From Photorhabdus sp. CRCIA-P01 (GTDB lineage Bacteria > Pseudomonadota > Gammaproteobacteria > Enterobacterales > Enterobacteriaceae), in contig NZ_NMQR01000041.1 in NCBI RefSeq assembly GCF_003545805.1, forward strand, positions 1 to 37,158: a DNA stretch of 37,158 nt, read 5' to 3'. Made by a program: the position numbers and the translations under genes. Positions 29,005 through 33,216 of this stretch are shown here, piece by piece. The notes beneath the pieces are model-generated. The model was not told the DNA's origin. It ran no database searches and saw nothing but the letters and a program-made list of their open reading frames with translations. Numbering within the stretch: the first letter of the stretch is position 1; each line of letters starts with the position of its first letter.

Positions 29005-29754
29005 TTATGCTGCCCTTACAATGTAGTTAAATGCGATATTACGAGGGCGATTCTCTGAGGCGACAGGAACAACTCTTGACGCCAGGAATCCAAAGCCGTA
29101 TGGAGTATCCGTGTCAGAAATATTTACCGATTTGAAACTGCCATCTGTAGCTATTCCAAGAACTTGACTAGCATAAAAAGCCCCTCTTGTTGCCAAATGA
29201 TAGTTTGGTGCTATCATGCCAGCGAACGAACCCTGAATATTTCGGATAGCATCCCCCTGATCAGTTAAAACTCCACGGCCACTATCAACACCTCGTCTAT
29301 CATCCCAACCCCGAATAAATTCCCCTCTCAAATCAGGTAATTTACCATCAGGATAAGCTTCTGCTAATTTTGGAAATTTCAACTTATCAAAGACCGCCCC
29401 ATTACACTGCAACCACTCAGCAGGCGGTATGGCAGTCGGCCAAGGAACAGGAACACCTACAGGAATGTTAGAGATATCTGAGATCTTCTGCTCTAATGCT
29501 TTATTTAATTGAGCGGTAAGTTTGGTTATATCACCATTATCCAAAACATCCTCGCCAGATTGTTCGGCAATAAAATTAGCTACGACGGCTGATATAGTTG
29601 ATGATTGATGAAATACCTTATTTAACAAATGAGAAGGAATATCATTTTGAGGAAATTCTGTCTGCAAATCCGGACTTACTTCATATTTCTCTTGACTCAC
29701 TACATTTGCATTATTACTAATAAAAAAATCTTTAAAATCATGCTTGGGACTCAT
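29005..29754 (-). CDS. Tail fibre protein with collar domain, tip type 3
   Basis: 249 aa. Shared N-terminal module (KHDFKDFFI, SGEDVLDNGD), then directly the collar domain (IPVGVPVPWPTAIPPAEWL, LPDLRGEFIRGWDDRRG). The Phage_fiber_2 repeat is absent. Tip residues ~175-235 are similar to the tip of the fibre at 32123 (YHLATRGAFYAS versus FHLATKGACYAS), so these two are recent relatives. AAGGAGGAC precedes the ATG. No assembly gene follows; the next 280 bp hold no Tfa. More amino-acid drift in the N-terminal module than in the other copies (ISNNANVVSQEKYEVSPD). Confidence 0.88.
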   Translation of the reverse strand: MSPKHDFKDFFISNNANVVSQEKYEVSPDLQTEFPQNDIPSHLLNKVFHQSSTISAVVANFIAEQSGEDVLDNGDITKLTAQLNKALEQKISDISNIPVGVPVPWPTAIPPAEWLQCNGAVFDKLKFPKLAEAYPDGKLPDLRGEFIRGWDDRRGVDSGRGVLTDQGDAIRNIQGSFAGMIAPNYHLATRGAFYASQVLGIATDGSFKSVNISDTDTPYGFGFLASRVVPVASENRPRNIAFNYIVRAA

Positions 29755-30077: not shown

Positions 30078-31559
30078 TTACCTCGGCTGTTCCGGCCATT
30101 CAATATCGGAAGACAGTGAAATATTTACTCTATTGAGCATTACCCTGTATTTTTTCCATCTCAGTAAAGCAGATTTTTCTACTTCGGTAGCGATATCTAA
30201 ATCAACAGCATCTTGCAGTAATGCAATGGATTCATTCGCGTGTCGCAACAGAGTTACACGCCGCTGCTCCGCTTGTTCAATCTGATTTGCTTTTAGGGCT
30301 ACATTATCAGTGACCCATTTTGTGCCATCCCATTTATCAAAATCGGTGGCAGGTTGCTTTAAGGTCAGAGTCTTAGGTAATTCACCCAGCTCAGTAATTT
30401 CCTGTTGAGTTCGTGTTAACGTATCGTAAGCTATTTTTCCCCGATAATCAGGGACAATTTCCCAACACTTACCTTCTACACTGCGACAAACAGCCTTATC
30501 GTGAGAATCGGAAAGCTCTGGCGCGTCGGGATAAGCTCCGGCTGACAGACTGACACCAAGCATGACATATTCAATATCAGAGTTTATGAATTCTCGGGTA
30601 ATTTGATTCGAGTGATAAACTTTTATCCAGCCGGGTTGAATAGCTAAACCATCTTTACCCAATACGGCTGTTTCATGTTCTAAAGAGTATTTTTGTTCTG
30701 TCATTATGTTACATGCTGCTGCTCTTACTATGTAGTTAAATGCTATATTGCGGGGCCTTGATACCCCTATATATGCAGAATTCGCAATCCAGTCTGTCTG
30801 AGCTTTATAATATACAGATTTTACCGAAATATTGTTATTTCGGGGAAGATCCCATTGCAATTTTGTGAGCTCATTACGCGAGGGGGTAATTATAAAATTA
30901 CTCGCCCGATCAACATTCTGTACCAAATAAGCCCCTTCCTGCCACGACAATATTGAACGAGATGGATCCACATTTCGACCACTGTCCCAGCCACGGATAA
31001 ATTCGCCTCTTAGATCGGGTAATCTGCCATCAGGATAAACTTCTGCTAACTTTGGATACTGCAACTTATTGAAAAATGCACCGTTACAAACGAGATAGTT
31101 GATAGGTGGATAGGGTAACGGCCACGGAATGGGGGAACCCACAGGTACATTAATTTCCTCACGTAATGAATTTATTATTTCCTGAACAAGCTTTTGTGTC
31201 ACAGCCAATGTATTGCTATTGCCAATCACATTGGTAAGCTGAACAATACCTTTCTGTGTTAATGAGGCATCAGGAACCTTTGTTGTCATTTTCTGTTCCA
31301 GCGCTCTATTTAATTGGGTGGTGAGTTCACCTATATTCCCATCGTCCAGAACATCATTGCCCGATTGTGTGGCGATAAAATTAGCGACTACAGAGGATAT
31401 CGTGGAAGACTGACGTAATGCCTTATTTAGCATATCAGTGGTAATACCATCTTGTGGAAACCCAGTTTGCAAACTCTGACTTTCTTCATATTTTTCTTGG
31501 CTAATCACATTAGCATTATTACTAATAGAAAAAGCCTTAAAATCATTTTTTTTACTCAT
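30078..31559 (-). CDS. Tail fibre (tip type 4) fused in frame to tail fibre assembly protein
   Basis: 493 aa. Residues 1-~281 are a fibre: KNDFKAFSI, SGNDVLDDGN, ASLTQKGIVQLTNV repeat, collar (PVGSPIPWPLPYPPINYL, LPDLRGEFIRGWDSGR), a tip unlike the others, and RPRNIAFNYIVRAA. Where the paralogues have a stop codon this gene reads A-C-N-I and then MTEQKYS, the start of a 208-residue Tfa ending IEWPEQPR. An ATG at 30704 could still start Tfa alone. Compared with the pair at 11174-12573 the junction has gained bases (GCAGCAGCATGTAAC) that remove the stop and align the frames. Both functional parts look complete, so the product may be a fibre with its chaperone attached, or two proteins by internal initiation. 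Confidence 0.85.
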   Translation of the reverse strand: MSKKNDFKAFSISNNANVISQEKYEESQSLQTGFPQDGITTDMLNKALRQSSTISSVVANFIATQSGNDVLDDGNIGELTTQLNRALEQKMTTKVPDASLTQKGIVQLTNVIGNSNTLAVTQKLVQEIINSLREEINVPVGSPIPWPLPYPPINYLVCNGAFFNKLQYPKLAEVYPDGRLPDLRGEFIRGWDSGRNVDPSRSILSWQEGAYLVQNVDRASNFIITPSRNELTKLQWDLPRNNNISVKSVYYKAQTDWIANSAYIGVSRPRNIAFNYIVRAAACNIMTEQKYSLEHETAVLGKDGLAIQPGWIKVYHSNQITREFINSDIEYVMLGVSLSAGAYPDAPELSDSHDKAVCRSVEGKCWEIVPDYRGKIAYDTLTRTQQEITELGELPKTLTLKQPATDFDKWDGTKWVTDNVALKANQIEQAEQRRVTLLRHANESIALLQDAVDLDIATEVEKSALLRWKKYRVMLNRVNISLSSDIEWPEQPR

Positions 31560-31648
31560 GCACTTACTCCTTAAGCAAAATAATATTTTTTATAATCAAC
31601 ATATTTAATTACTGTAAAAATAATCCGCCTGTAATTCATTCAAATTAA

Positions 31649-31722
31649 AGTCTAGTTCAGAAAGAAGAGTAATACAGCATTCCTATTTATTAGGAGATTG
31701 ACTGTTTTTATATAATTAACCG
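31649..31722 (-). promoter_or_regulatory. Shared fibre upstream segment, copy for the fibre-Tfa fusion
   Basis: Minus strand GTTAATTATATAAAAACAGT (31702-31721) then TGAACTAGACT (31649-31659) and TTTAAT in the -10 position (TTTAATTTG). Confidence 0.5.
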
Positions 31723-31795
31723 CAATAAGTAATTAAATATTTTAGAATCGGAAATATATCCAAACCATTTATATTTAATATCTGAAAACTATTTT

Positions 31796-32001
31796 TCTCT
31801 TATTCCTTCTATCTCTTCTTGTAACTGCTTCTGTTTTAAGCTCCAAGATGAATCTTCCGGAATTTAGGCACAAACATCTAAACGACAGTATTCTGGAATG
31901 CCACAGAACTCTCTATCTTCATAAAACATACATTCATTGTTCTCATCAATACAACTTAAGTCGTCAGTTCTGAAAACAAGTCGGTAAATGAGAGTGCTAA
32001 C
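31796..32001 (-). pseudogene. Decayed tail fibre tip (copy of the tip of the 432-aa fibre)
   Basis: Minus-strand remnant of the last ~65 codons of the fibre at 9586: HLP, then FQN-stop-RL, then after a one-base shift IDEN, FYEDREFCGIPEYCRLDVCA-stop-IPEDSSWSLKQKQLQEE. Intact version: FYQDGEPCDIPDSCRLDI and MPEDSLWNLNRKKLQKE. It has at least two internal stops and one frameshift. Homology begins within ~12 bases of the solitary CRISPR-like repeat. Confidence 0.8.
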
Positions 32002-32029
32002 TTTCTAAGCTGCCTGTACGGCAGTACAC
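32002..32029 (-). CRISPR. Solitary type I-F CRISPR-like repeat (no array)
   Basis: 28 bases that match the enterobacterial I-F repeat (as in Pectobacterium) at 26 of 28 positions on the minus strand. The hairpin core CTGCCGTACAGGCAG and the 3' handle CTTAGAAA are exact; the 5' end reads GTGTA instead of GTTCA. No second repeat, leader or cas gene is in the window. A weak promoter-like pair (TTTAAC at 32060-32065, TAATAT at 32037-32042, 17-bp spacer) on the same strand would start transcription at about the first base of the repeat. The 32 bases after it are the fibre pseudogene. Confidence 0.75.
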
Positions 32030-32036
32030 TTATTAC

Positions 32037-32065
32037 ATATTAACCTCAACCTATTGAGTGTTAAA
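32037..32065 (-). promoter_or_regulatory. Weak promoter candidate for the solitary repeat
   Basis: Minus strand TTTAAC (32060-32065), 17-bp spacer, TAATAT (32037-32042). Matches to consensus are 3 of 6 and 4 of 6. Expected start point is 32028-32031, right at the repeat. Confidence 0.3.
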
Positions 32066-32099
32066 GAAGTAGAACAGCCTCTTTTTCTATTTCTGGCTA

Positions 32100-32123
32100 T
32101 CAAACGTATTTTTGTTCAGCCAT
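32100..32123 (-). pseudogene. Seven-codon stub of a tail fibre assembly gene
   Basis: ATG overlapping the fibre stop (TAATG) starts MAEQKYV then stop. This is the start of a Tfa gene (compare MTEQKYS in the fusion gene). The rest of the gene has been lost, so the fibre at 32123 has no assembly partner beside it. Confidence 0.7.
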
Positions 32124-33040
32124 TATGCCGCTCTTACTATGTAATTAAAGGCTATATTGCGGGGGCGATTCTCCGAGGCTATAGGAACAACCCTTGACGC
32201 GTCGAACCCAAAACCATATTCAGTGTATACAACATCCGGGGTAAAATGACCTACCGATTTGAGCTTGCCGTCTGTAGCCACCCCAGAAGTTGCACTAGCA
32301 TAACAAGCCCCTTTTGTTGCCAGATGAAAACCATTTGTTATCGCCCCAGGAAACGACCCCTCAATATTTCTGATAGCATCCCCCTGATGAGTTAAAACCC
32401 CACGGCCACTATCAATACCTCGACCATCATCCCATCCGCGGATAAATTCACCCCTTAAATCAGGTAATCTACCGTCAGGATAAGCTTCCGCCAACTTCGG
32501 ATACTGTAATCTATTAAAAGCTGAACCATTACAAGTGAAATAACCGAACGGTGGGTGAGGTAACGGCCACGGAATAGGAGAACCGACAGGAATTTCATTG
32601 GCTGTTTTAATCCGGTTATCTATCTCTTCGCGGGTATATTCACGTAATGAATTTATTACTTCCTGAACAAGCTTTTGTGTAACCGCTAATGTATCGCTAT
32701 TGCCAATCACATTTGTAAGCTGGACAACACCTTTTTGTGTTAATGAGGCGCCAGGAATGTCTGTTGTAATTTTTTGTTCTAACGCTTTATTTAATTGAGC
32801 GGTAAGTTTGGCTATATTTCCATCATCCAGAACATCATTGCCAGATCGTGTCGCGATAAAATCAGCCACAGCAGATGATACCGTTGACGCTTGACGTAAT
32901 ACCTTATTTAACAAGTGAGTGGGAACATTATCTGGTGAAAATCCAGTCTTCAAACTTTGGTTTTCTTCATATTTTTCTTGATTTACCACATTCGCATTAT
33001 CACTAATAGAAAAAGCCTTAAAATCATTCTTATAACTCAT
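32123..33040 (-). CDS. Tail fibre protein with collar domain, tip type 3b
   Basis: 305 aa, the most complete fibre of array B: shared N-terminal module (KNDFKAFSI, SGNDVLDDGN), ASLTQKGVVQLTNV repeat, a short helical EEIDNRIKTAN linker not seen in the others, collar (IPVGSPIPWPLPHPPFGYF, LPDLRGEFIRGWDDGRG), tip related to the 249-aa fibre, and NRPRNIAFNYIVRAA. CAGGAGAA precedes the ATG. It stands first in array B by transcription direction. Confidence 0.9.
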   Translation of the reverse strand: MSYKNDFKAFSISDNANVVNQEKYEENQSLKTGFSPDNVPTHLLNKVLRQASTVSSAVADFIATRSGNDVLDDGNIAKLTAQLNKALEQKITTDIPGASLTQKGVVQLTNVIGNSDTLAVTQKLVQEVINSLREYTREEIDNRIKTANEIPVGSPIPWPLPHPPFGYFTCNGSAFNRLQYPKLAEAYPDGRLPDLRGEFIRGWDDGRGIDSGRGVLTHQGDAIRNIEGSFPGAITNGFHLATKGACYASATSGVATDGKLKSVGHFTPDVVYTEYGFGFDASRVVPIASENRPRNIAFNYIVRAA

Positions 33041-33130
33041 GTATTTTCTCCTGAAATTAAATAATGTTATTTTATAATCAATATATTGAATTATTATAAA
33101 AACAATCCCCCTTGCAATTTACGTCAATCA

Positions 33131-33201
33131 AGTCTAGTTCAGAAAAAGAATAATGCAGCGTTCTTATTACTTATAAGGTTAATTATTTTTATATAATTGG
33201 C
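33131..33201 (-). promoter_or_regulatory. Shared fibre upstream segment, copy for the 305-aa fibre
   Basis: Minus strand GCCAATTATATAAAAATAAT (33182-33201) then TGAACTAGACT (33131-33141). The distal box is almost identical to that at 12708-12732 although the genes are 20 kb apart. Confidence 0.5.
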
Positions 33202-33216
33202 AGCAATTGAAATTGT

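Follow-up and report, generated by a model that had tools for sequence, protein, structure and literature searches.

In Legionella pneumophila, collapse of type I-F CRISPR arrays to a single repeat through recombination between the first and last repeats has been proposed, and the text of the same study describes an engineered deletion that mimicked the collapse and the refilling of the depleted array by priming from another array (PMC7056967). The collapse and refilling of type I-F arrays in Legionella are also treated in the text of a review (PMC8047081). A different significance attaches to single type I-F repeats in phage-derived DNA. RacrIF1 is described as a strongly expressed small RNA whose inhibitory part is the 70-76 nt that precede the Cas6f cut; the accompanying survey of solitary repeat units (SRUs) screens its candidates by the repeats around them, and its main text never uses the word ‘leader’ (PMC10651486). 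In Photorhabdus luminescens, six arrays with the repeat GTKCACTGCCGTACAGGCAGCTTAGAAA are described in both the TT01 and DJC genomes, with spacers that differ by strain (PMC6267812). These arrays belong to the same repeat family as the locus reported here; single-repeat loci are not mentioned in the text of that account, and the string ‘tail fib’ is absent from its main text (PMC6267812). Among open PMC papers, we found no description of CRISPR arrays between Photorhabdus tail-fibre genes.

The DNA analysed here, hereafter the window, is a stretch of 37,158 nt from Photorhabdus sp. CRCIA-P01 that represents contig C145 of a 5.3-Mb genome in 208 contigs, and it contains a single type I-F repeat among tail-fibre genes (Table 1). 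A preliminary description had put this repeat forward as a candidate RNA anti-CRISPR, with a relic of a lost array as the alternative. We conclude with high confidence that it is the latter, a collapsed type I-F CRISPR array of the host that has also suffered leader loss: a leader remnant adjoins the repeat, arrays occupy the same site in five of seven relatives, and the window falls among array-bearing tips in a tree of the flanking sequence. The collapse of an array to one repeat is already known in kind, and the window adds a natural Photorhabdus case together with the loss of leader motifs. As in Legionella, a type I-F array is down to one repeat in a cell that has another array, but the window is without ~111 bp of leader and the integration motifs in it, which makes refilling unlikely; and whereas the Legionella array that was refilled had been engineered, the window is a natural case inside a tail-fibre cluster (PMC7056967).

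Table 1. Coordinates of the features at the solitary repeat locus, numbered from the first base of the window
Feature	Position	Strand	Basis
Third tail-fibre gene of the cluster	29005..29754	-	Pfam PF07484
Tail fibre fused to tail-fibre assembly protein, trailer side	30078..31559	-	Pfam PF07484, PF02413
Trailer-side flank	31560..32001		Collinear with the sequence that follows the last repeat of the orthologous arrays in G003, G006, G007 and G008
Single type I-F CRISPR repeat GTGTACTGCCGTACAGGCAGCTTAGAAA	32002..32029	-	Rfam RF01317; repeat identity with relatives; fold
CRISPR leader remnant, 38 bp adjoining the first repeat	32030..32067	-	Alignment with 15 array leaders; genus search
Promoter-like TTAACA-16-TAATAT in the retained leader end	32037..32064	-	Predicted; similar in other leaders
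Deletion junction, distal leader missing	32067..32068	-	Gap placed here in 6/6 pairwise comparisons
Tail-fibre (collar domain) gene, leader side	32123..33040	-	Pfam PF07484 and PF03406; orthologue beside array in relatives

The repeat itself is an ordinary member of its family. Its match to the Rfam model CRISPR-DR4 is beyond chance, at 43 bits against a gathering score of 35 and with an E-value of 7.5e-7 in that Rfam search. The identity first reported for the minus strand, 26 of 28 positions against GTTCACTGCCGTACAGGCAGCTTAGAAA, was reproduced, as was the intact hairpin, the CTGCC/GGCAG stem being kept as a 5-bp helix of -8.6 kcal/mol. The folding energy is unexceptional (z -1.76, with 10 of 200 shuffles equally good; z -0.76 with flanks). 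The description of the 5′ handle as altered was mistaken: both differences sit at repeat positions 3-4, at the other end from the 8-nt type I-F 5′ handle, which reads CTTAGAAA and is intact. Nor is the repeat as a whole an altered one, since its GTGTAC... form is letter-identical to the standard array repeats of six genomes (G001, G002, G003, G007, G008 and G009), and is the main repeat of fibre-cluster arrays in G003 (third array), G007, G008 (second array) and G009. It differs at two positions from the GTTCAC... form and at one from the GTGCAC... repeats of its own genome, and is thus a different variant from that of the genome's three large arrays.

A scan of the window at up to nine mismatches to the consensus found no second copy, in agreement with the earlier claim of a lone repeat. 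The repeat is intergenic and, as in an SRU, has no partial repeat within 100 bp. A functional array needs two or more repeats separated by a spacer, and the window holds one repeat and no spacer; a crRNA-like two-repeat unit, considered as a further candidate, is ruled out because the scan found no second repeat at this threshold.

The sequence that adjoins the repeat ties it to CRISPR arrays. A collapsed array is expected to have leader sequence directly upstream of its repeat, and here 38 bp are kept. When 70 bp around the repeat, spanning the leader-repeat junction, were used as a query, matches were found in all 12 genomes of the genus; repeat counts at the junction matches that were fetched showed that the matches are array starts, and the organism names were Photorhabdus for 23 of 23 stretches. 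A dispersed transposon-like family ending in the repeat had also been considered, as a 66-bp piece was found at many scattered sites in the genus in a first search, and this candidate was rejected when the second search and the repeat counts identified the scattered sites as leader-repeat junctions of arrays.

The distal part of the leader is missing, with a gap of 111 bp in five of six pairwise comparisons and of 112 bp in the sixth. In the alignment of 15 leaders, the missing block carries an IHF-like site and a CCCTTTTTT...AAAAAAGGG inverted repeat. The site in Photorhabdus leaders is presumed to be IHF-like from its resemblance to the IHF consensus. Leader statistics were drawn from 41 distinct leaders, the window's own included, which had been selected by requiring TTAATAT[GC]TAA before the repeat; the conservation of a -10-like hexamer among them is therefore by construction, and the selection has no bearing on the -35-like, IHF and inverted-repeat motifs. 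The IHF-like pattern is present in 38 of the 40 other leaders and CCCTTTTTT in 39 of the 40, and both are absent from the window leader. The window therefore has neither the IHF site nor the type I-F inverted-repeat motif that mark the leader of a functional array, and on these motifs the truncated leader can probably no longer support spacer acquisition.

The weak promoter mentioned in the preliminary description lies in the retained leader end. The TTAACA-16-TAATAT sequence is indeed present, and is the only promoter candidate in positions 31880-32300; as evidence for a dedicated promoter it fared less well, because one site was found against 1.0 in shuffled sequences and it lies within the conserved leader end. 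A -35-like hexamer with at least four of six matches occurs in 37 of the 41 leaders, and because a similar promoter-like site is found in most other leaders, the sequence in the window may be a true leader promoter.

The locus was fetched from seven relatives (G003-G009; G001, G002, G010 and G011 were left out). In five of the seven, a true array stands at the orthologous position between the same fibre genes, with two repeats in G004, three in G006, three in G007, eight in G008 and 33 in G003; the flanks are collinear, with a trailer that differs in G004 beyond ~31805. The comparison with G006 shows the relationship most directly. Window positions 30078-32029 align across the gene for the fibre/assembly fusion, then the trailer flank and finally the terminal repeat, positions 32002-32067 align with the first repeat and the leader, and positions 32067-33207 run on into the next fibre gene once ~110 bp of leader have been skipped. 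The picture in G008 is the same, both sides being collinear, so that only the array interior and ~110 bp of leader are missing from the window; G003 and G007 are similar to G006, but have extra fibre copies and arrays. The fibre/assembly fusion gene has 88-92% DNA identity in the relatives. In the two remaining genomes, the G005 locus has no repeat at up to eight mismatches, and in G009 similarity to the window ends at 31887, without a trailer junction, the array being elsewhere in the cluster.

IMG/VR records contain further arrays in the fibre cluster, with 8, 10, 5, 4 and 1 repeats. The only other copy of the window locus found here is the IMG/VR record L095; the two have 100% identity for 14,232 bp, as far as one base short of the contig end, and L095 probably represents the genome of the window itself. 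The fibre clusters of G003, G006, G007 and G008 (L085, L086, L087 and L088) carry two or three arrays with their own leaders, interleaved with tail-fibre genes; the fibre module and the array may have been duplicated together in these clusters.

The direction of change was addressed with a tree of 10 tips built from the 1.7-kb trailer-side gene and flank, an unrooted tree of a recombining fibre locus. G004, G006 and two IMG/VR records form a group (support 1.000) that the window joins (0.995), followed by G007 with another record (0.938); the node joining G008 and G009 has a support of only 0.257. An array lies beside the flank in every tip except G009, although in IMGVR_2846523622 it is ~0.5 kb from the flank end and has another trailer. 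By parsimony on this unrooted tree, the single repeat would be the derived and not the ancestral state. The nearest array-bearing tips, G004 and G006, have GTGCAC repeats, and GTGTAC repeats are found one step further away, in G007 and L100, so that the repeat variant and the flank point to not quite the same nearest relative.

Arrays at this position have demonstrably lost spacers. The flank of G006 is identical to that of IMGVR_2848770152, which has eight repeats and seven spacers; of the seven, only numbers 4 and 7 remain in G006. Spacers 5 and 6, which lie between these two, must have been deleted in G006, whereas the absence of spacers 1-3 could instead reflect later gains in IMGVR_2848770152. 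A further record, L099, has an intact leader and one repeat, and both of its flanks are 98.5-98.9% identical to a P. bodei locus with two repeats. One array position is seen in states of 1 to 33 repeats, with direct evidence that spacers were lost between strains that are nearly identical, and Photorhabdus therefore offers a system in which the collapse of arrays can be tested.

These comparisons favour a model in which an ancestor carried a normal type I-F array, with leader, repeats and spacers, between two tail-fibre genes. Recombination between the first and last repeats, or replication slippage, would then have removed all spacers and left one repeat; it is the collinear flanks, together with the arrays of the sister genomes, from which we infer loss from first to last repeat. 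A separate deletion of ~111 bp would have taken both the IHF-like site and the inverted-repeat motif contacted by Cas1-Cas2/3, along with the rest of the distal leader. With that stretch and its motifs gone, as the alignments show, refilling of the locus would be improbable. As the locus has no spacer, it would yield no spacer-carrying crRNA, and a read-through transcript would be expected to be cleaved by the Cas6f of the host, to no known effect. The window repeat is perfect, whereas sister arrays often end in a repeat with mutations at its 3′ end, which suggests that either the crossover generated a clean repeat or the ancestral terminal repeat was itself clean, as it is in G008. The preliminary description had stated that the anti-CRISPR proposal would fail if the repeat were the last unit of a decayed array with further degenerate repeats; the repeat does appear to be such a last unit, by way of collapse, and the degenerate repeats are not in the window. 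No ancestral spacer, which would be evidence for an earlier array in the window's own lineage, survives at the locus.

Two other routes to a single repeat beside a leader were weighed. One is a newborn array, consisting of a leader and a repeat that never acquired a spacer; loci with one good repeat and intact leader motifs do exist in L099, L124 and L128, but the neighbouring tips of the tree hold 2-33 repeats at the site of the window, whose leader is without the integration motifs, and we consider this origin barely conceivable. The other is an assembly artefact that conceals a real array. Misassembly is formally possible in a 208-contig assembly, and the sole other copy found of the locus, L095, probably comes from the same genome; against this, the assembly resolved arrays of 32, 36 and 41 repeats elsewhere in that genome, and a leader gap as clean as the 111 bp seen here would be atypical of a repeat-collapse error, which leaves the artefact a negligible prospect.

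The collapsed-array model also has to be set against the original proposal of an RNA anti-CRISPR (Racr), whereby the transcribed repeat would sequester Cas6f and Cas7f in a dead-end complex and so protect a phage from the I-F system. The resemblance to RacrIF1 and the SRUs is real, as the window has one I-F repeat, without a second, that keeps the Cas6f-type stem-loop and is intergenic within phage-derived DNA of a host with a matching I-F system (PMC10651486). In addition, the I-F gene set of the host is complete, the promoter-like sequence adjoins the repeat, the site is within fibre genes and IMG/VR calls the record L095 viral. What sets the window apart from RacrIF1 and the SRUs is that it has a CRISPR leader remnant and orthologous arrays, and that it is known here from sequence alone (PMC10651486). 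The repeat is unmodified and attached to a piece of leader, where an independent phage element would be neither attached to a leader nor orthologous to real arrays; because several sister genomes keep an array at the same spot, a relic is the better explanation than a phage anti-CRISPR RNA.

Other lines of evidence give the anti-CRISPR proposal no support. The five small ORFs beside the repeat have no match to an NCBIfam family, and an RNA from the promoter candidate would start approximately at the repeat, ~20 nt before the cut, as against 70-76 nt for RacrIF1 (PMC10651486). The phage-derived stretch of the window is preceded by uvrY, uvrC, pgsA and genes for tRNA-Gly, -Cys and -Leu, and the terminase and portal matches beside the fibre cluster cover only part of their profiles, which indicates a resident remnant and not an active phage. 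A blastn search with the intergenic region found no match at an E-value of 0.01 in 50,697 phage records, a set that may exclude records from the genome of the window. For a Racr-like role, there is no evidence beyond what an ordinary leftover array would show, and we regard such a role as very unlikely.

The spacers of the genome were considered from the same viewpoint. None of its 109 own spacers matches the window at 20 or more bases, and a comparison of 572 distinct spacers from 41 loci with the window and the loci fetched by then found three foreign spacers with matches of 26 or more bases to the window, one of which matches it at three separate positions. One own spacer (L022:4037-4068) is a 32/32 match to the cas5f gene of the same genome (L021:13409-13440), on contig C1. 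The flank of this protospacer is AA, and CC stands beside three other protospacers; on the strength of these dinucleotides, the cas5f target is probably not cut. Self-targeting that would call for an anti-CRISPR was accordingly rejected as a candidate explanation, since no own spacer matches the window at 20 or more bases and the AA flank at cas5f suggests that no inhibitor would be needed there.

A retained function of the single hairpin was considered in two further forms. The repeat is on the same strand as the leader-side fibre gene and begins 93 bp after its stop, no terminator-like site was found in positions 31880-32300, and the hairpin is intact, so that it could serve as a Cas6f cleavage site in the 3′ region of the fibre mRNA, where cleavage of a read-through transcript from 32123-33040 would alter mRNA stability. 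Read-through is an assumption, however, and relatives hold arrays at the site, so the element has not been selected as a single hairpin; this proposal is highly improbable. Alternatively, a collapsed array locked by motif loss might have been retained as a decoy for Cas6f on the chromosome or as a Racr-like brake on the cell's own I-F system, which we think very unlikely; if true, it would be a possible route from arrays to SRUs.

The preliminary description had proposed a search of the complete genome for I-F cas genes and arrays, and both were found. The genes cas6f, cas7f, cas5f, cas8f, cas2-3 and cas1 are on contig C1, without internal stops, together with type I-F arrays of 32, 41 and 36 repeats, and an array of four repeats is on C136; the GTGCAC... 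repeats of these arrays are identical to the window repeat at 27 of 28 positions. At least 114 CRISPR-DR4 matches are distributed over C1, C136, C132 and C145, with 150 of 2312 first-look candidates scored. Three other loci of this genome are of note. On C132, a second single-repeat relic (L024:459-486), degenerate with five mismatches, lies behind a leader-proximal end, and what we take to be an ERIC-like sequence stands where the distal leader would be. The four-repeat array on C136 (L023:1211-1400) has an intact leader and one spacer of only 14 nt, and an array that ends beside cas1 on C1 (L022:1728-1936) has terminal repeats that degenerate step by step, up to nine mismatches in the last.

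For the window, an anti-CRISPR candidate becomes an explained relic, of an ordinary kind, which is useful as a warning and offers a tractable example of collapse. Surveys of solitary repeats in ‘viral’ sequences can take in collapsed host arrays, and a useful control for solitary-repeat anti-CRISPR claims is to ask whether a CRISPR leader adjoins the repeat and whether relatives have an array at the corresponding site. We compared 123 IMG/VR stretches from two scans and found, among the matches listed, at least 32 solitary I-F-type repeats, of which 23 are away from the ends. The full leader signature accompanies at least two of these 32 (L099 and L177), among the matches listed; L095, with its cut leader, fails the leader-signature test, so that two of 32 is a lower bound.

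Another solitary repeat is in the record IMGVR_UViG_3300013099_000026, which is called viral. Its repeat (L102:2941-2968) is a perfect GTTCAC... solitary repeat that is leaderless and directly follows a promoter-like TTGCAT-17-TATATT, read by eye. As a leaderless phage SRU with a promoter-like sequence of its own, it shows features that the window is without, and on these sequence features it is a better candidate for an RNA anti-CRISPR than the window. Single good repeats behind an intact I-F leader, with degenerate copies nearby, are present in P. namnaonensis (L124:3378-3405) and P. akhurstii (L128:5878-5905).
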